From Meiothermus rufus DSM 22234 (lineage in GTDB: Bacteria > Deinococcota > Deinococci > Deinococcales > Thermaceae): a stretch of DNA of 58,264 nt. A program made the translations under genes and the position numbers. The DNA lies in NCBI RefSeq assembly GCF_000423425.1, contig NZ_AUHY01000014.1, positions 1 through 58,264 on the forward strand, given 5' to 3'. Position 1 is the first letter of the stretch; each line of letters starts with the position of its first letter. The notes under the pieces were generated by a model. That model made no database searches and was not told the DNA's origin. It saw only the letters and a list, made by a program, of their open reading frames with translations. Positions 31,645 to 58,034 of the stretch are shown here, piece after piece.

Positions 31645-33387
31645 CTAGTCGGGCATGCGCATCTGGAGTACGAACTCCTCCCGTTCCTTGCCCTCGGCGC
31701 TGGTAGCTAGGGAGGCCAGCACCGCAGCAATGGCGTTGGCTGCGACGGAGATCATCCCCCAGGCGATGGTACCGATCTTCTGCCCGAAGAGCACCAGGGG
31801 CGGGGCGTTGAAGACCCCAACCGCCAGCACGTAGGGCAGGGCCACCAGCATGCCTACCACCATTCCGGCTACCACCCCGTAGCGGTTGAGCCGCCGCCAG
31901 AAGATGCCCAACATGATGATGGGGGTGAAGCTCGAGGCCGCGAAGACGAAGGCCCAGCCCACCATCAAGGCCACGTAGCGGCTGAAGTTGGGGTCGCTCA
32001 GGGCCAGGTAGCCCAGGAAGCCGCCGATGAGGCCGATCACCACCAGCATCACCCGCACGAAGCCCACCTCGCCCTCTTCCGAGGCCTGGGGGTTGATGAA
32101 GCGCTTGTAGATGTCGCGCGATACCGCAGTGGACATGGCCAAAAGCAGCCCGTCAGCGGTGGAAAGGGCGGCGGCCAAGCCGCCTACCGCCACCAGCGGG
32201 GCGATGAGCCAGATCATGCCGAACATGTCGGGCATGCCCACCACCACGATGTCGTTGTGGAAGGAAAGCTCGGCGGGTTGGATGATGCCGTCGGAGTTGG
32301 CGTCGTTCACCTTGACCAGGCCAGTGGGCAGCCACTTCTGCACCCAGGGGGTATTCTGTACGACCTCGAGGGGTTTGTTCCACAGCTCGCTGATGGCCCG
32401 ACGGGCAATGGCCGCGTAGATCGAGGCCGAGGTGTAGAGCAACCCGATGAAGAGGAGAGCCCAGCCCACGCTCATGCGGGCGGCGTGCACGCTGGTCACG
32501 GTGTAGAAGCGTACCAGGATGTGGGGCAGGCCCATGGTTCCCAGCATCAGCACCAGCGCGGCCAGTATCCAGTTAAGCTGCCCCGTACCCCCGGCAAACG
32601 GTCGGGCAAAGGGCTCGGTCCAGAGGGGGCTCAGCCCGGCTGCCGCCTCGCGCGACTCCACCTCGCCGACCAGCGGGCCATACTGCACCCAGGGCAAGGG
32701 CAACAGGCCCAGCGCCGCTCCGGCGATCACGATGGGGGTGAGGTACATGGCGATCAGCACCCAGTACTGCACGAACTGCACCCAGGTGATGCTGCGCCAA
32801 CCACTGGTCCAGGCGTAGGCCAGAGCGCCGAATACCCCCACGAAGACCGCGATGGTAGCCGGAATGCCCAGGAAGCGGGAGAAGACCACCCCTACCCCGG
32901 TGAGCTGGGCGGTGAGGTAGGTCAGGGAGGTGATGAAAACGATGATAACCGCGATCACCCGGGCGGTGGGCCAGCCCCCAGCCAGCTTTTCGATCAGCTC
33001 AGGCACGGTGTAGGTGCCCGACTTGCGCACGAAAGGCGCGATGGTGAAGGCCATCAGGGTATAGCCCAGGGTCCAGCCGATCACGTAAGGCAGGGCATCG
33101 AAGCCCAGAAAGGCAATGATCCCGGCCATGGAGAGGAAGCTGGCTGCGGACATCCAGTCGGCGGCGGTGGCGGCTCCGTTCACCAAGGCGGGAATGGAGC
33201 GGCCCGCCACGTAGAAGTCCCCTGTGGACTGGGAGCGGATAGAAAGGGCCAGCACCAGGTAGACCGCGATGCTACCGATAATCAAAATCAGGGAAGTCAG
33301 GTACTCCCTACCGATGGGGTAGGCCAGCGCGGCCAGAAGCACGACCACGACAGCCGTAATCAGGGGGTTGCGTACTACGGGCGACAT
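31645..33387 (-). CDS. Sodium:solute symporter (VC_2705 / ActP-like acetate family)
   Basis: A 580-residue membrane protein with about 13-14 helices in the SLC5/SSS fold (NGAATAADWMSAASFLSMAG, GYTLMAFTIAPFVRKSGTYT, GGLAAALSTADGLLLAMSTA). The long cytoplasmic or periplasmic loop with VNDANSDGIIQPAEL resembles a calcium-binding EF-hand-like loop, seen in this subfamily. With the DUF4212 protein it forms a sodium-driven importer of acetate or related short acids. Position in a cluster with acetyl-CoA synthetases supports this. It begins 3 bp after the DUF4212 stop. Confidence 0.9.
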   Translation of the reverse strand: MSPVVRNPLITAVVVVLLAALAYPIGREYLTSLILIIGSIAVYLVLALSIRSQSTGDFYVAGRSIPALVNGAATAADWMSAASFLSMAGIIAFLGFDALPYVIGWTLGYTLMAFTIAPFVRKSGTYTVPELIEKLAGGWPTARVIAVIIVFITSLTYLTAQLTGVGVVFSRFLGIPATIAVFVGVFGALAYAWTSGWRSITWVQFVQYWVLIAMYLTPIVIAGAALGLLPLPWVQYGPLVGEVESREAAAGLSPLWTEPFARPFAGGTGQLNWILAALVLMLGTMGLPHILVRFYTVTSVHAARMSVGWALLFIGLLYTSASIYAAIARRAISELWNKPLEVVQNTPWVQKWLPTGLVKVNDANSDGIIQPAELSFHNDIVVVGMPDMFGMIWLIAPLVAVGGLAAALSTADGLLLAMSTAVSRDIYKRFINPQASEEGEVGFVRVMLVVIGLIGGFLGYLALSDPNFSRYVALMVGWAFVFAASSFTPIIMLGIFWRRLNRYGVVAGMVVGMLVALPYVLAVGVFNAPPLVLFGQKIGTIAWGMISVAANAIAAVLASLATSAEGKEREEFVLQMRMPD

Positions 33388-33390
33388 GGG

Positions 33391-33666
33391 CTACTTTCCC
33401 TCCTGGAGCTGTCGCTGCAGCTCCTGGTCCAGTTGGTTCATCTTGGCTGCATACCAGAAGATCAGCACAACCCCCAGCACAATCACGATGAAAGCGTTGA
33501 TGTACCAGTGAAGTGAGGGGATGGGCCCTAGAGTGACCCCTTTAAGCGAGGGCGAGAGAACTGGCAGCACGATGGCGATGATGATCCAGTAGATCAGGGA
33601 GGTGACGGTGAGCCTTTTGACCTGGCCCCAGTACCACTCCCGGATCGCTTCAGGTGTTTCTCCCAT
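33391..33666 (-). CDS. DUF4212 symporter small subunit
   Basis: A 91-residue protein with two helices (SLIYWIIIAIVLPVLSP and WYINAFIVIVLGVVLIFWYAA), the usual DUF4212 pattern beginning WYWGQVKRLT and ending in a charged coiled tail (MNQLDQELQRQLQEGK). ATG at 33666 is chosen because GGAGG lies 5 bp upstream; in-frame ATGs at 33678 and 33684 overlap that site. It is the constant companion of the SSS permease encoded next. Confidence 0.9.
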   Translation of the reverse strand: MGETPEAIREWYWGQVKRLTVTSLIYWIIIAIVLPVLSPSLKGVTLGPIPSLHWYINAFIVIVLGVVLIFWYAAKMNQLDQELQRQLQEGK

Positions 33667-33737
33667 AACAGCCTCCATGTACATGCAAGCAGTCCCACAG
33701 GGCCTCCTTGGGGCTTTTTTTCTGCTTGCTGGGGGGT

Positions 33738-33766
33738 ATCTTAGCCAGCCACTGTATACCCGTCAA
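33738..33766 (-). promoter_or_regulatory. Promoter of the DUF4212-symporter operon
   Basis: Minus strand: TTGACG (33766-33761) and TAAGAT (33743-33738) with a 17-bp spacer, starting about 65 bp upstream of the DUF4212 ATG. The ten bases ending at the -35 (TTTCTTGACG) are identical to those of the acs promoter. Confidence 0.8.
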
Positions 33767-33778
33767 GAAACACCTCCT

Positions 33779-33802
33779 TTTTGCGTATCCCGCAAAATTG
33801 CT
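33779..33802 (-). promoter_or_regulatory. Putative activator site upstream of the symporter promoter
   Basis: The dyad TTTTGCG-5-CGCAAAA (33779-33785, 33791-33797) lies 12 bp upstream of the -35. With its flank it matches the element in front of acs (shared GCAA, TT, GC, GGAT, CAAA blocks). GGAT is 24 nt from the first base of the -35 here and 23 nt at acs. No T-run follows it, so it is not a terminator of the upstream ACS gene. Confidence 0.5.
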
Positions 33803-33805
33803 TTT

Positions 33806-35689
33806 TTACTCCTCTAAGGTGGAGAGATCCCCGGGATCCTTGCCCAGTTCCTGGGCTTTGAGGAGCCGGCGCAGAATCTTGCCCGAGCGGGTTTTGGGTA
33901 GCTTGTCTAAGAAGACCAGTTCGGCAGGGGTGGCGATGGGGCCCAGCTCGAGGCGCACGTGCTGGATGATTTCCTCCCGCAGGGCTGGGCTTTTTTCCCG
34001 CCCGGCCCTGAGCACCACAAAGGCCTTGATGTTTTCCCCTTTGATGGGGTCGGGCACCCCGATGACCGCAGCCTCGGCCACCGCCGGGTGCGAGACCAAG
34101 GCACTTTCCACATCGGCAGTGCCAATGCGGTGGCCGGCCACGTTGAGCACGTCGTCGGCCCGGCCCAGCACGCCAAAGTAGCCATCGGGGCTCTGGCTGG
34201 CCACATCGCCGGCGGCGTATACCCAGCCGGGTATCTCGGTCCAGTACTGGGTGTAGCGGGCGTGGTTGCCCCAGACGGTGCGCATCATGTGGGGGAAGGG
34301 GCGCTTGAGCACCAGCAACCCCCCGCTGCCGGGGGGAACCTCGTGGCCCTTAGCGTCCACCACCGCTGCCTCGACCCCCGGCAGGGGCACCCCGGCAAAG
34401 CCCGGACGGGCCTCGAGGGTGATGGGGGTGCCCAGGGTAGGCCCGCCCAGCTCGGTCTGCCACCAGTTGTCGGCCACAAAGCCGCGCTTTCCCCCCTCCG
34501 TCAGGTGCTCCACCGCCCACTGCCAGGCCTCGGGGTTGAGCGGCTCGCCCGCCACCCCAACGAGGCGCAGGCTGGAGAGGTCGTGGCGGGCGGGCCACTC
34601 CGGGCCAAACTTCATAAACATCCGCACCGCGGTGGGGGCGGTGAACATCACGTTCACCCGGTAGCGCTCCACCACGCTCCAGAAGGCCCCGGGGTCGGGG
34701 TAGTCGGGCGCTCCCTCCCGCAAGAGGCTGGTCACGCCCTCCAATAGCGGCGCATAGACGATGTAGCTGTGCCCCACGATCCAGCCGATGTCGGAGGTGG
34801 CCCAGTACACGTCGGTATCCTTCACATCGAAGAAACTGCGCAGGTGGTAGGCGGTGCCCACCATGTAGCCCCCGTGCACGTGCACCACCCCTTTGGGCTT
34901 GCCGGTGGAGCCGGAGGTATAGAGGATGAACAGGGGGTGCTCGCTGTCGAGGGGCACGGCCTCGGCCTTGGGGGGGTGGCTCCAGAGCAACTGGTTGAAG
35001 TCGTGGAAGCGGGGCCCCTGGGGGGCGGCCTTGCTGCGGCAGAACCAGACCGTGGGAATATCCAGGTCTTCGATGGCCTGAAGCACGATGGCCTCGAGGT
35101 CTACCGCCTTGCCCCGGCGGTAGCTTACGTCCCCGGCCATCACCAGCTTGGCCCCGGCGTCCAGGATGCGCTCCCGCAGGGCCGAGACCCCCAGACCGGC
35201 ATAGACCACCGAGTGGATGGCCCCGATGCGGGCACAGGCCAGTATGGCGATGATGCCCTCCAGGGTGAGGGGCATGTAGATGATCACCCGGTCGCCTTGG
35301 GCAATGCCTAAGCGGCCAAGCGCGGTAGCCAGCCGGGCTACCCGGTCGAGGAGTTCGCCGTAGGTCAGCTTTTCCTCCTGGCCGTCCTCCCGCAGGTAGA
35401 GGAGGGCCACCTGGTTGCGCTTGGGGCCTTTGGCGTGGCGGTCGAGGGCGTTGTAGGTGATGTTGGTCTGGCCGCCCACAAACCAGCGGTGGTCGGGGAA
35501 GTTCCACTCCATGACCCGCTCGTAGGGGCGGAACCAGTGAAAGCGCTGGGCCTGGGCCCCCCAAAACCCCTCGGGGTCTTGCAGGCTACGGGTGTACTCC
35601 GCCTGGAAATCCGGCACATTGGCGGCCTCTCGCAAGGCCGCCGGGGCCTGGTAGCGAAGCTCGGTTTTGAGTAGTTGCTCGAGTTCCAT
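33806..35689 (-). CDS. Acetate/short-chain acyl-CoA synthetase (second ACS)
   Basis: A 627-residue AMP-forming ligase. It carries the ATP loop [11 protein letters not shown], the acyl-pocket and aryl motif NWWQTELGG with the tryptophan typical of acetyl- and propionyl-CoA synthetases, the hinge GRADDVLNVAGHR, and the catalytic and acetylatable lysine in [18 protein letters not shown]. It activates acetate or propionate to the CoA ester. Closest relative in the window is the ACS half of the adjacent IclR fusion: a 100-bp tract is identical at DNA level. It begins 16 bp after the stop of that gene, so the two are probably co-transcribed. Confidence 0.9.
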   Translation of the reverse strand: MELEQLLKTELRYQAPAALREAANVPDFQAEYTRSLQDPEGFWGAQAQRFHWFRPYERVMEWNFPDHRWFVGGQTNITYNALDRHAKGPKRNQVALLYLREDGQEEKLTYGELLDRVARLATALGRLGIAQGDRVIIYMPLTLEGIIAILACARIGAIHSVVYAGLGVSALRERILDAGAKLVMAGDVSYRRGKAVDLEAIVLQAIEDLDIPTVWFCRSKAAPQGPRFHDFNQLLWSHPPKAEAVPLDSEHPLFILYTSGSTGKPKGVVHVHGGYMVGTAYHLRSFFDVKDTDVYWATSDIGWIVGHSYIVYAPLLEGVTSLLREGAPDYPDPGAFWSVVERYRVNVMFTAPTAVRMFMKFGPEWPARHDLSSLRLVGVAGEPLNPEAWQWAVEHLTEGGKRGFVADNWWQTELGGPTLGTPITLEARPGFAGVPLPGVEAAVVDAKGHEVPPGSGGLLVLKRPFPHMMRTVWGNHARYTQYWTEIPGWVYAAGDVASQSPDGYFGVLGRADDVLNVAGHRIGTADVESALVSHPAVAEAAVIGVPDPIKGENIKAFVVLRAGREKSPALREEIIQHVRLELGPIATPAELVFLDKLPKTRSGKILRRLLKAQELGKDPGDLSTLEE

Positions 35690-35704: not shown

Positions 35705-38356
35705 TTAGGGTTCTAGTGTGGAAAGGTCGCCAGGGTCGGCGCCTAGCTCCTGGGCTTTGAGCAGGCGGCGCAAAATTTTGCCACTCTTGGTGCGGGGCAG
35801 GTGCTCGAGGACCTCCACTTCGGTATGCAGGCCGGCGCTACCTAGCTGGCGGCGCAGATAGGTGGCCAGTTTGCTGGCCATAATCTCACGGACCTGGAGG
35901 CTACTTTCTCGGGTTTTGAGCACCACGTAGACCTTGATGACCTCGCCGTGAATGGGGTCGCTCAAGCCCACCGCAGCGGCCTCGGCTACCGCAGGGTGGG
36001 CCAGCATAGTTCCTTCGATCTCGGCGGTGCCAATGCGCAGCTCGCCTACCTTAATCACGTCATCGGAGCGGCCCAAAAGGGCGATGTACCCCTCGCTGTC
36101 GCGCACTGCCAGGTCGCCGGTGGCATAGACCCCCGGGATGCGCTGCCACTGTTCGGCGTAGCGCTCCGGGTTATTCCAGAAAGTGCGCATGAAGTGGGGG
36201 AAGGGGAACCGCAGCACCAGGTGGCCCTTTTCGCCTGGGGGCAGCTCCCGCCCCTGGGGGTCTACCACTGCCACCTCTACCCCCGGCAGGGGGAGGCCCA
36301 CCTTGCCCGGCTTGACCGGGCAGCACAGGGGGGTGGAAAGGCAGGGCCCACCGGTCTCGGTCTGCCACCAGTGGTCCAGCACATGGGCCAGGTGTTTGGT
36401 AGCCCAGTGCCAGACCTCGGGGGCCAGGTACTCGCCCACGCTGGCCACCAGGCGAAGCTCACTCAGGTGGGCTTTCTTGGCCCAGTCGTCGCCATGCTTG
36501 CGCAGGGTGCGTAGCCAGGTGGGGCTGGTGATGAGCACGTTAACCCCGCACTCTTCCAGGGTCTCGTAAAAGGAGCCGGCGTCGGGGTAGTCCAGCCGCT
36601 CGGCCCGCAGCACGCTGGTCAGGCCCTCCAGAAGGGGGGCGTACAGGCCGTAGCTATGCCCCACAATCCAGGACAGATCGGCGGTGGCCCAGCTGACCTC
36701 CCCCTCCTTCAGGTCGAAAAGGGTGCGCAGGTGGTAGGTGGTCCCCACCATGTAGCCCCCGTGCACGTGCACCACCCCTTTGGGCTTGCCGGTGGAGCCG
36801 GAGGTATAGAGGATGAACAGGGGGTGCTCGCTGTCGAGGGGCAGGGCAGGGGTGGTGGGCCGGTGGGCCTCGAGCAACTCCCAGAACTCCAGCGTATCTT
36901 GCTGCCCATCCCGGCTATGCCACAGGATGGGCATGGTCAGCCCTTGGGTAGCCTCTTCGACCAGCCCGCGTAAGGGAATGGTGCGCCCGGCCTGGTACAT
37001 GCGGTCGGCAGCCACCAGGAGCCTCGCCTGGGTGTCCAGCAGGCGCTCCCGCAAAGCCTGGCTGCCCAGGCCAGCGGGGATGGCTACATGCACCGCCCCG
37101 ATGCGGGCACAGGCCAGGAAGGTTAGGGTGGTCTCCAAGCTGGTCGGCATATAGACCGCCACCCGGTCGCCCGCCCCTACGCCTAAAGCCTGCAGCCCAC
37201 CGGCTAACCTCGAGACCAGGTCGCGTAGCTCGCGGTAGCTTACCTTGTGCACGCTGCCATCGTCGGCCAGCACCACCAGGGCCAGCTGGTTGCGCTTGGG
37301 GCCTTTGGCGTGGCGGTCAAGGGCGTTATAGGTGATGTTGGTCTGACCGCCCACAAACCAGCGGTGGTTGGGGAAGTTCCACTCCACGACCCGCTCGTAG
37401 GGGCGGAACCAGTGAAAACGCCGGGCCCACTCGGCCCAGAAGCTCTCTGGGTCTTGCTGGCTGCGAGCGTATTCTGCTGCGTAGTCTTGCAGGTTGGCGT
37501 TGTTTCGCAGCGAAGCTGGGGCCCATACCGGCTGCTCCTCATAGGAAGGGATGGCGGGGGGTGTCCGAGGGGGTTGTAGTGCAGGCGCGTTCTTTTCCTC
37601 CTCTTCCTTTGGCGTTTGGGCCTGGGGGGGGAAGCTCGAGGCGGCCCGGGCTACCTCCTGCACGGCCTGGGCCAGCCGGGTAAAGGCGTAGGGGAAACGC
37701 CTCGAGGGCACCAGTACGCCCAAGGCCCCCACCACCCGGCCCTCTGGCCCAAAAATGGGTGCGGCCAGGCTGGAAAGGCCCTCGGCGTGCTCCTCGATCT
37801 CCACGGCAAAGCCCAACTGCCGCACCTTGGCCAGCTCCTCCTCGAGGGTCAGGGGGTCGGTGATGGTGAGAGGGGTAAAAGGGCGCAGGTGCTGGAAGTG
37901 GCGGGCCTGAGCCTCGGCCTCCAGGAAGGCCAGCACGGCTTTGCCCAGGGCCAAAGCGTGGAAGCCTTCGGTCACCTGATCCAGGCCCACCAGGCGGGGC
38001 AATCCCTGCCGCCCCCGTGTGCTGAGCCTTAGCTCCCCTTCGCGGCCCAGGAGGGCCAGATAGCTCCGCTCGCGGGTGCGCAGGTAGAGTTCCTCCAGGG
38101 CGTCGCTCAGCTTTTCAGGTCGGGCCAGGGGGGCTGGGGCTGGAGCCAAAGCCGTGCGGGAGAGCCGGTAGGTGCTCCCTTCCCGCTCAGCAAAACCCTC
38201 CGCTACCAGGCTGGCCAGAAGGGCGTAGGCGGTGGAGAGGCTCTTGCCCAGGAAGGTGGCCAGCCGCGCGGCCTCCACGCCCTCGGGGTGCTGGGCCAAA
38301 TAGGCCAGCACGCGCAACGCAGCTTGTACGGTGGTCAGTTTGCGGCTCTGTGCCAT
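35705..38356 (-). CDS. IclR-type transcription regulator fused to an acyl-CoA synthetase
   Basis: An 883-residue single frame. Residues 5-65 are an IclR winged helix (LTTVQAALRVLAYLAQHPEG, KSLSTAYALLASLVAEGFAE). Residues 75-240 are the IclR effector domain (GFHALALGKAVLAFLE, SLAAPIFGPEGRVVGALGVL). A Pro/Glu-rich linker spans about 241-280. Residues 281-883 are a full acetyl-CoA-synthetase-like enzyme with [35 protein letters not shown] and LPRTKSGKILRRL. The gene is transcribed divergently from acs across a 224-bp region with a dyad between the two promoters. I infer a regulator that senses its own substrate or adenylate and controls acetate genes. GRSDD replaces GRADD; activity untested. Confidence 0.9.
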   Translation of the reverse strand: MAQSRKLTTVQAALRVLAYLAQHPEGVEAARLATFLGKSLSTAYALLASLVAEGFAEREGSTYRLSRTALAPAPAPLARPEKLSDALEELYLRTRERSYLALLGREGELRLSTRGRQGLPRLVGLDQVTEGFHALALGKAVLAFLEAEAQARHFQHLRPFTPLTITDPLTLEEELAKVRQLGFAVEIEEHAEGLSSLAAPIFGPEGRVVGALGVLVPSRRFPYAFTRLAQAVQEVARAASSFPPQAQTPKEEEEKNAPALQPPRTPPAIPSYEEQPVWAPASLRNNANLQDYAAEYARSQQDPESFWAEWARRFHWFRPYERVVEWNFPNHRWFVGGQTNITYNALDRHAKGPKRNQLALVVLADDGSVHKVSYRELRDLVSRLAGGLQALGVGAGDRVAVYMPTSLETTLTFLACARIGAVHVAIPAGLGSQALRERLLDTQARLLVAADRMYQAGRTIPLRGLVEEATQGLTMPILWHSRDGQQDTLEFWELLEAHRPTTPALPLDSEHPLFILYTSGSTGKPKGVVHVHGGYMVGTTYHLRTLFDLKEGEVSWATADLSWIVGHSYGLYAPLLEGLTSVLRAERLDYPDAGSFYETLEECGVNVLITSPTWLRTLRKHGDDWAKKAHLSELRLVASVGEYLAPEVWHWATKHLAHVLDHWWQTETGGPCLSTPLCCPVKPGKVGLPLPGVEVAVVDPQGRELPPGEKGHLVLRFPFPHFMRTFWNNPERYAEQWQRIPGVYATGDLAVRDSEGYIALLGRSDDVIKVGELRIGTAEIEGTMLAHPAVAEAAAVGLSDPIHGEVIKVYVVLKTRESSLQVREIMASKLATYLRRQLGSAGLHTEVEVLEHLPRTKSGKILRRLLKAQELGADPGDLSTLEP

Positions 38357-38400: not shown

Positions 38401-38429
38401 ATGATGGCTTTACCCGGGGTGGGTGTCAA
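38401..38429 (-). promoter_or_regulatory. Promoter of the IclR-ACS fusion gene
   Basis: Minus strand: TTGACA (38429-38424) and CATCAT (38406-38401), spacer 17 bp. The start codon is 45 bp downstream of the -10. Perfect -35, four of six at the -10. Confidence 0.6.
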
Positions 38430-38432
38430 GTA

Positions 38433-38458
38433 TTGGCAAAATTCGCAGGATTGCCAAA
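38433..38458 (+). promoter_or_regulatory. Dyad operator between divergent acs and IclR-ACS promoters
   Basis: TTGGCAA-11-TTGCCAA is a perfect 7-bp inverted repeat (38433-38439, 38451-38457) placed between the two -35 boxes, 13 bp upstream of the acs -35 and 3 bp from that of the fusion gene. Similar sequence precedes the symporter promoter. Position fits activation of acs and repression of the fusion gene. Confidence 0.55.
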
Positions 38459-38470
38459 GTAGAGGATTTC

Positions 38471-38499
38471 TTGACGAGAGGGGTTTTTCTTTCTATCCT
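38471..38499 (+). promoter_or_regulatory. Promoter of acs
   Basis: TTGACG (38471-38476) and TATCCT (38494-38499) separated by 17 bp. The leader is about 75 nt and ends in GAGGGG about 8 bp before the ATG. Confidence 0.75.
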
Positions 38500-38580: not shown

Positions 38581-40527
<1,947 letters not shown>

Positions 40528-43344: not shown

Positions 43345-45219
43345 ATGGGTCGGTACTTTTTTCTCTTGGTCAACTTGCTGGTGCTCCTCACCATGCTCCT
43401 GGCCCCCTGGGCGGTTCCAATGCGGGAGTTCGATGGCACCGGTTACCTCCTCAACCCCCTGGGGCCGATAAACCCCCAGGGTCTCGCCTTGCCGGAGGGG
43501 CTTACCTTTGGCTGGATCGGCCCAGTCTTCGTCCTTTGGATTTTGCTGCTTTTGGTTGCCAGCGGCGTGCTGTTTTTGCCCAATGCCGAAAGCCGGGCTC
43601 GAGGGCTCTACGTTCTGGGGGGTCTGGGCTTGGCCCTTTTCGCCCTCGAGGCTCTTCTTTTCTACCAGGCGGTGAGCGCGGCCAATGAAGCCGCCTTGGC
43701 CGCCGGCGCCCGCCGCCCGCCCTTGCGCCGTTTTGCCCTATCGCTAGGGATGTACGCTGGCTTCTTTTACTCGCTGGCCCTGCTGTTGCTGGCCCGGATG
43801 CAGCTTCCGGGGGGGCGGGCCTTCCTGGTACGGCTGCGGGGCGTGGTGGTGCCGGTTTTTTCCCTCTTGCTGGCGGTGGTGGTAGGGGCTTTAGTGGTGG
43901 CTGTTCTGAGGCCCGGCCTGGGCACCGAAGGGGTGGAGGGGGTGGGCCTGCGCGAACTGGTGGCGGGGAAGCTCGACTTGGTGACCTACACCTTCCAGAT
44001 TCTCTTCAGCCCCATTCTGAGCTTGCCCGGCCTGTTCAATAGCCTGGCCTTTGCGACGCCGCTTATCTTTACTGGCTTGGCGGTGTCTTTTGGTTTCCGC
44101 GCGGGCTTGTTCAACATCGGGGCCCCAGGCCAGCTCACCATCGGTGCGCTGTTCGCCATGCTGGCGGGGGTATACCTGCCCCTGCCGGGCTGGCTGCTCC
44201 TGCCAGCGGCTATCCTGGCCGCGGCCCTAGGTGGGGCCTTGTGGGGGGGCATTGTGGGCTGGCTCAAGGCCCGCTTTGGCGCCAACGAGGTCATCAACAC
44301 CATCATGATGAACTACATTGCCGCTTCGGTACTGCTGTTTATGCTGGCCGCCAACGAGTACCGCTTTTTCGGCCAGACGGTGCGCCTGCCCTTCAAGGCC
44401 GAAGGCTTCGAGGGGCGCAGCGAGGAGATGCAGGAAGGGGCCCGCATCCCCCTGATGATTCATATCCTGGCTCCCGACAGCACCTTTTCCTGGGCTTTGC
44501 CTTTGGCAGTGGTGGCTGCGCTGGGGGCCTACTATGGCTTTAGGCGCTGGGAGCTGGGTCAACGCCTCTTGCTGACCATAGTAGCCATGGTGCTGGGCTT
44601 TGCGCTGGGCGGGCTGCTGCCTGGCTTCCCAGTGACCATCAGCTCAGCGCTGGCCTCACAGCTGCTCAACGGCTCCTTCCTGATCGCCATTTTGGCCTTG
44701 CTCTTCTACAACTTCTACCTTTTCCGTACCTCTGCGGGGTACGAGCTGCGGGCCACTGGTCTGGCACCCAAAGCCGCCGACTACGCCGGGGTGAACCTCA
44801 AGCGGAAAACCGTCCTGACCATGGTGATCGCGGGAGCCTTGGCGGGGTTGGCGGCTACCCACTACGTGCTGGGGGCCGGTATGGACGGCACCTACCGGCT
44901 CAAGACGGCCATTCCGGCCAGCGTCGGCTTCGATGGTATCGCCGTGGCGCTGATGGGCCAGAACATGCCCCTGGGCATCTTTCTCTCGGCCACCCTGTTC
45001 GGCGTGCTGTTGGCCGGGGGGGTCTCGCTCAATGCGCAGCTGGGTATCAGCAACCAGATCATCCAGGTGCTTCAGGCCCTGATTATCCTGTTTATTGCGG
45101 TGGGAGGGCTGCTGCCGCGCTACTTCACCGATCCGTTGCGGGCCGCCCAGATCGAGACCGAGGCCAAGGCCGAGCAGGAGGCCCGGCAGGCCAAGTCCGC
45201 ACCTGCAGGAGGAAACTAA
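43345..45219 (+). CDS. ABC importer permease (BMP/nucleoside type), extended
   Basis: A 624-residue membrane protein. The C-terminal two-thirds is a BPD_transp_2 permease (FRAGLFNIGAPGQLTIGALF, ANEVINTIMMNYIAASVLLF, RTSAGYELRATGLAPKAADY, GLAATHYVLGAGMDGTYRLK). The first 230 residues add about five further helices not normal for this family, and residues about 345-440 insert an extra hydrophilic plus hydrophobic segment. It pairs with the permease starting 3 bp downstream. Its ATPase and binding protein are probably those at 55-58 kb. Nucleosides or simple sugars are the usual cargo. Confidence 0.88.
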   Translation: MGRYFFLLVNLLVLLTMLLAPWAVPMREFDGTGYLLNPLGPINPQGLALPEGLTFGWIGPVFVLWILLLLVASGVLFLPNAESRARGLYVLGGLGLALFALEALLFYQAVSAANEAALAAGARRPPLRRFALSLGMYAGFFYSLALLLLARMQLPGGRAFLVRLRGVVVPVFSLLLAVVVGALVVAVLRPGLGTEGVEGVGLRELVAGKLDLVTYTFQILFSPILSLPGLFNSLAFATPLIFTGLAVSFGFRAGLFNIGAPGQLTIGALFAMLAGVYLPLPGWLLLPAAILAAALGGALWGGIVGWLKARFGANEVINTIMMNYIAASVLLFMLAANEYRFFGQTVRLPFKAEGFEGRSEEMQEGARIPLMIHILAPDSTFSWALPLAVVAALGAYYGFRRWELGQRLLLTIVAMVLGFALGGLLPGFPVTISSALASQLLNGSFLIAILALLFYNFYLFRTSAGYELRATGLAPKAADYAGVNLKRKTVLTMVIAGALAGLAATHYVLGAGMDGTYRLKTAIPASVGFDGIAVALMGQNMPLGIFLSATLFGVLLAGGVSLNAQLGISNQIIQVLQALIILFIAVGGLLPRYFTDPLRAAQIETEAKAEQEARQAKSAPAGGN

Positions 45220-57876: not shown

Positions 57877-58034
57877 TGTAATCGGTCAACACATGTGAGA
57901 CTGGGGAACCGACTCCTCCTGCATCTTAGCTAAATACTCCAAGGGAGCAAGACCCTGTAATCGGTCAACACATGTGAGACTGGGGAACCGACTCCTCCTG
58001 CATCTTAGCTAAATACTCCAAGGGAGCAAGACCC
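57877..58034. repeat. 79-bp tandem duplication of the transposon 3' end
   Basis: Two identical 79-bp units, 57877-57955 and 57956-58034, each starting TGTAATCGGTCAACACATG and ending GCAAGACCC. The unit holds the last codons of the transposase and its terminal TGT...; the inner copy is continuous with the transposase gene, the outer one is a stub abutting the binding-protein promoter. Confidence 0.95.

Follow-up and report, generated by a model that had tools for sequence, protein, structure and literature searches.

IclR of E. coli is a regulator of the acetate and glyoxylate genes, and BirA is a bifunctional ligase and regulator that remains an active ligase. In T. thermophilus TTHA0507 is annotated as "acetate operon repressor" and is listed beside the malate synthase TTHA0506 (PMC7662524). 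Motif groups given for the IclR family by Suvorova and Gelfand (2021; PMC8222616) include GKTYCRY-W3-4-RYGRAMC and TGRAACA-N1-2-TGTTYCA. A literature search, with subscription papers mostly outside its coverage, found no paper describing a fusion of IclR to an acetyl-CoA synthetase. Such a fusion, IclR-ACS, is encoded in the window (the whole stretch of 58,264 nucleotides analysed here), divergent from acs. As judged from sequence comparison, the predicted and conserved operator described below and its regulon are real, and the assignment of IclR-ACS as the regulator is strong by computation.

The locus and its two promoters

On the minus strand the window carries the proposed regulator IclR-ACS (35705..38356; 883 aa), the second acetate-CoA ligase-type protein ACS2 (33806..35689), the small symporter subunit DUF4212 (33391..33684; PF13937, TIGR03647) and the large subunit of a sodium/solute symporter of the VC_2705 type (31645..33387; TIGR03648, 517.9 bits, cutoff 320.75). 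The acetate-CoA ligase gene acs lies on the plus strand (38581..40527), and its divergence from the IclR-ACS gene is an arrangement found across a family of 50 genomes. The reading frame of IclR-ACS is conserved in the family, and the protein combines HTH_IclR (38.5 bits, cutoff 22) and IclR_C (81.7 bits, cutoff 24), both above the Pfam gathering scores, with an ACS-like AMP-binding domain. This ACS half scores 587.4 bits with TIGR02188, below the cutoff of 724.95, whereas acs (1020.3 bits) and ACS2 (731.9 bits) are above it. The symporter scores 134.2 bits with the ActP model TIGR02711, below its cutoff of 1099.25; we infer that its substrate is acetate.

The acs promoter has a -35 hexamer TTGACG (38471..38476, plus strand) within TTTCTTGACG (38467-38476), followed after a 17-nt spacer by the -10-like hexamer TATCCT (38494..38499, plus). 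The promoter of the symporter (DUF4212) has TTGACG (33761..33766, minus strand) within TTTCTTGACG (33770..33761) and, again after 17 nt, the -10-like hexamer TAAGAT (33738..33743, minus). Upstream of the latter lies the predicted operator core TTTTGCG-GGATA-CGCAAAA (33779..33797, minus), which has homologues in the family. It is a perfect 7-bp dyad, TTTTGCG-N5-CGCAAAA, that ends 12 nt before TTGACG, and its GGAT starts at 33790, 24 nt from the -35 on the minus strand. On the acs side the conserved core ATTCGCAGGATTGCCAAA (38441..38458, plus) lies in the region that separates the acs promoter from the divergent iclR-ACS promoter, with GGAT at 38448, 23 nt from the -35 (start to start). An outer dyad, TTGGCAA-N11-TTGCCAA (38433..38457), is likewise perfect over 7 bp and ends 13 nt before TTGACG. 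The -35 hexamer of the divergent iclR-ACS operon is TTGACA (38424..38429, minus), at a GTCAAG...CTTGAC spacing that is largely kept in the family.

The initial annotation had claimed that both promoters share TTTCTTGACG, a preceding GAGG and a related upstream block with a dyad 12-13 nt before the -35; all of this is present in the sequence, and its coordinates, letters and distances were correct on recheck. As a description of a shared element it stands for the quasi-palindromic core, which is conserved, but not for the GAGG, present at only 4 of 46 aligned sites (by eye), nor for the outer dyad, the left arm of which, TTGGCAA, occurs in none of the other same-genus sequences in the alignment (by eye); these parts are specific to the window or nearly so.

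Among the 1,653 pairs formed by the 58 TTGAC sites of the window, the acs/symporter pair ranked third by upstream similarity, with 28 identities in the aligned upstream region against a mean of 17.5 (sd 2.5); the top-ranked pair is a local near-duplicate. The TTGAC sites at 57889 and 57968 (minus), 79 nt apart, have near-identical 46-nt contexts with 44 identities, a local duplication. When the window was scored with a matrix from other genomes only, the symporter site came second and third (its two strand readings) and the acs site fourth of 116,494 positions, and both were outscored by a match at 43574 in a coding ORF. The best motif scores fall within the Markov-simulated range, and in 58 kb the motif by itself does not reach significance. 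The window pair is insufficient on its own, and it is conservation that, in our reading, carries the case for the element.

A scan of the chromosome for the motif, proposed in the initial annotation, was made on the 2.74-Mb draft of the own genome with a held-out model of promoter plus element. It recovered the symporter site first (E 0.0033), but the acs site, a weak member, only fourth (E 1.04). A strict pattern of the letters shared in the window recovered only the symporter site plus two GC-rich matches at 2 mismatches, was not better than its reversed control and was set aside as too strict. A match at C10:53605 (E 0.06 and 0.03 in two runs) has no CTTGAC box, lies where a transporter ORF ends and was taken as chance.

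Conservation of the element in the family

The family sample consisted of 50 genomes, from what we infer to be Meiothermus- and Thermus-type bacteria, 48 of them with the IclR-ACS fusion and two (G006 and G011) without it. In the extracted acs/iclR-ACS intergenic regions a quasi-palindrome, approximately TTTNGCNNATNNNGCNAAA, is flanked by the -35 boxes of both divergent promoters and lies upstream of the -35 by 11-13 nt. All 47 of the 47 scored fusion genomes carry it, the observed score being reached by no more than 2 of 60 shuffles; the matrix omitted the genome being tested and, because close relatives stayed in the training set, these scores are not fully independent. In the 48th fusion genome, the fragmentary G042, the model located the acs site. 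G006 and G011, which have no fusion, score lowest at acs, with 28 and 18 of 60 shuffles, respectively, reaching the score, and lack the element. Although the sequence flanking the core varies, the distance between the -35 boxes, GTCAAG to CTTGAC, is nearly constant: of 47 genomes, 43 have 39 nt, three have 40 and one has 41. Absence of conservation in relatives had been named in the initial annotation as what would speak against the element, and the element survived the family footprinting. In several g4 genomes near-complete self-complementarity extends over the whole 51 nt from one divergent -35 box through the other; it covers 42 of 51 positions in G022 (L137:14792-14842), far above the 24 of 51 in the window genome.

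At the symporter promoter the element was found in 42 of the 50 genomes. It precedes the symporter genes that follow ACS2 in 25 genomes including the window, as located by a pattern search, and in G041, as located by the model; in ten same-genus genomes it takes the form TTTCGCANATAT..., at about 11 nt from the following TTG(A/C)C. Six genomes have a cluster without the symporter, and in all six the model locates the element elsewhere, 69-101 nt upstream of a relocated DUF4212-symporter-CBS operon, at sites that were absent from its training set. Among the matches listed outside the acs/symporter cluster with E <0.01 there are seven, of which six are these relocated operons and the seventh (G043:C18) is without promoter context. 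The symporter element was not found in eight of the 50 genomes (G001, G002, G003, G004, G006, G008, G011, and G019); in G004 a likely one is visible by eye. Weaker model matches (E 0.01-0.5) were read in 11 regions and discarded as mostly inside ORFs or unconvincing, those resembling promoters being only G034, the malate synthase/iclR intergenic region, and possibly G003. In G003 the weaker element (L187:3632-3670, E 0.012) precedes the gene for a 2Fe-2S protein by about 270 nt, and this gene is a possible extra target of the regulator.

The DUF4212-symporter pair of the window is 71-73% and 85% identical to the pairs of G044 and G047, which belong to another genus, and the cluster symporters of same-genus relatives are only about 38-41% identical to that of the window. 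Because identity to the other genus exceeds identity within the genus, a horizontal replacement of the pair is suggested, in which the operator may have been retained or carried along.

A predicted regulon and its candidate regulator

We propose, with a probability of about 0.78, that the shared block is the operator of IclR-ACS and that it couples acetate activation, synthesis of the regulator itself and short-chain acid uptake in one regulon. A dimer or tetramer of IclR-ACS would bind the quasi-palindrome at the midpoint of the divergent promoter pair of acs and iclR-ACS, as well as a second operator copy at the equivalent position upstream of the symporter promoter, and acs, ACS2, iclR-ACS and short-chain acid uptake would thereby be jointly controlled. 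The fused synthetase domain, with its altered thioester-stage loop, would detect acetate or acetyl-adenylate as the signal. Binding would presumably activate transcription, the site being upstream of, and not on, the -35 boxes and at rigid spacing to both divergent promoters; the centre of the element is about two helical turns from the -35 hexamer. In the paralogous malate-synthase system a similar element is located upstream of the malate synthase -35 and overlaps the sequence TTGAAA, a possible -35 of the iclR gene (by eye). Activation of the metabolic gene, the mode of control that the initial annotation had postulated for acs and the symporter, is a plausible reading of both systems because the element precedes the -35 boxes of the metabolic genes and in the latter system overlaps the -35-like sequence of iclR.

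It is quite possible, if rather doubtful, that IclR-ACS instead represses from the element and that acetate or acetyl-adenylate relieves the repression. E. coli IclR is a repressor, the 39 nt that separate the two -35 boxes are within the reach of a tetramer, and the near-consensus core promoters of acs and the symporter are compatible with this, -35/17/-10 cores being equally typical of repressed and activated promoters. The core element, however, ends 11-13 nt short of each -35, and the layout of the malate-synthase system is familiar from IclR-type activators such as PobR.

Whatever the sign, IclR-ACS is very probably the regulator of the acs/symporter element, since the element tracks the fusion, persists where no other IclR homologue was detected and dissociates from the malate-synthase IclR. 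The acs element is absent in both genomes that lack IclR-ACS (G006 and G011), and present in the three genomes (G001, G019, and G058) in which the fusion is the sole IclR homologue detected (E <=1e-4). Of these, G058 does not belong to the family, and among such genomes it alone matches the IclR half (E <=1e-22, in an 894-residue frame; 61 genomes of the phylum searched). Its acs/iclR-ACS intergenic region carries the element (E 0.001); none was found in the four other order-level genomes searched. A contig scan with the whole fusion found 80 loci; in 79 of them the reported match leaves out at least the first 234 query residues and so covers mostly the ACS part, and in the remaining one (L025) it begins at residue 203. 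The initial annotation had postulated a common regulator for acs and the symporter, which gains support from the conservation of the element at both promoters, and had considered IclR-ACS the best candidate, a choice that agrees with the co-occurrence just described (2/2 absent, 3/3 present). It had discounted the local response regulator as lacking a DNA-binding domain; this was borne out by Pfam, and two-component control by this protein was set aside because only a receiver domain was found.

It is improbable that the element is instead bound by the stand-alone, TTHA0507-like IclR encoded beside malate synthase and that IclR-ACS is an incidental neighbour. Cross-binding is conceivable, as the divergent region of the malate-synthase IclR holds a similar element of its own, approximately TTTTGCNTNTATTGAAAAA, at 12 of 12 loci by eye, including those of G006 and G011. 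Yet G001, G019, and G058 are without a stand-alone IclR (E <=1e-4) and have the acs element, whereas G006 and G011 retain the malate-synthase IclR (82% and 81% identity) together with its element but are without the acs element; the latter two genomes may reflect one common loss event.

That an unlinked factor such as a CRP/FNR-type regulator binds the element appears very improbable too. The co-occurrence tests covered part of the DNA-binding proteins of these genomes, which is to its advantage, but absence of the element follows absence of the fusion and variants of the element adjoin four IclR-type genes (IclR-ACS, the malate-synthase IclR, G011:C122, and G044:C10). The ACS-less IclR genes in G011 and G044 have TTTGCAGGATTTGCAAAC and TTGCAGAATATGCAAAA, respectively, upstream (by eye). 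The stand-alone IclR of G011 (L210:4200-7403), with the TTTGCAGGATTTGCAAAC element before its gene, shares 41% identity with the IclR half of the fusion and is located upstream of two E1-like dehydrogenase genes, which we take to be of the pyruvate/acetoin dehydrogenase type. Finally, a chance resemblance of two strong sigma-70-type promoters in a thermophile has next to no probability and seems already largely refuted by the footprint, for although the element score alone is within the chance range for 58 kb and TTTCTTGAC recurs at acs and symporter promoters family-wide, the element is conserved in 48 genomes at acs and in 42 at symporter promoters, including the relocated operons, and is lost together with the regulator.

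The fused synthetase half and comparison with known systems

The synthetase halves of 44 fusions were aligned, three short ones of 47 being omitted. Residues for adenylation are kept, with the active-site Lys of the C-terminal motif in 41 of 44 and the acetate-pocket Trp in 44 of 44. The Gly of the loop N-V-S/A-G-H-R is invariant in acs (48/48) and ACS2 (42/42); in the fusions this position is Glu in 40, Asp in one, Gly in two and unreadable in one, and the loop Asn is replaced by Lys in 41 of 44. The window fusion has K-V-G-E-L-R in place of the intact thioester-stage loop. In Salmonella substitution of the corresponding Gly reportedly blocks thioester formation. In a fungal acetyl-CoA synthetase a loop is active in the thioester-forming conformation, and its Asn548 and Arg553 contact the adenylate (PMC8383264); by our mapping it corresponds to the loop N-V-S/A-G-H-R.

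Because the adenylation residues are kept, the thioester-loop Gly is Glu in 40 of 44 fusions and the ligase cutoff is missed, we propose that the fused synthetase may serve as a sensor of acetate or acetyl-adenylate rather than as an enzyme. In its full form this idea is tentative, at somewhat less than even odds: IclR-ACS would be a dedicated acetate sensor, a former synthetase with its CoA half-reaction disabled by the Gly-to-Glu change, which holds acetate or acetyl-AMP and signals to the IclR domain. The latter would in turn switch acs, the symporter and the operon of the fusion itself, and a BirA-like logic would have arisen independently for acetate. The sensor reading fails for some orthologues because the fusions of G001 and G003 keep a normal, ACS2-like AGHR loop, and such intact loops suggest that the enzyme can be swapped back in. 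At the loci of these two genomes (L131 and L133) no separate ACS2 was found beside the fusion, as if tandem ACS genes had recombined. The locus would offer a family-wide and directly testable acetate-use regulon for thermophilic bacteria. Its regulator apparently includes a metabolic enzyme converted into a sensor of its own substrate, and would be a clear example of how transcriptional sensors arise from enzymes.

Compared with the group 1 motif of the IclR family, as given in PMC8222616, the element has similar half-sites by eye (TTTCGC on the left, GC(G)AAA on the right), but in the examined sites the two halves are spaced about 1-2 nt further apart and the match is inexact. The fused half has the adenylation residues of the AMP-forming acetyl-CoA synthetases and differs from them in the loop Gly and Asn and in missing the TIGR02188 cutoff. 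BirA-type ligase/regulators resemble IclR-ACS in having DNA-binding and adenylate-forming domains in one chain and in an arrangement suited to controlling genes of the same metabolite; BirA, however, is still an active ligase, whereas in IclR-ACS the thioester-stage loop is altered and it is the domain make-up that suggests adenylate signalling. With the IclR-family regulators of acetate and glyoxylate metabolism, E. coli IclR and TTHA0507, IclR-ACS shares HTH_IclR and IclR_C, a divergent neighbour in acetate metabolism and a quasi-palindrome with AT-rich outer and GC-rich inner parts, and it differs from them in being fused to an acetyl-CoA synthetase-like domain and in its predicted targets, acs and the symporter.
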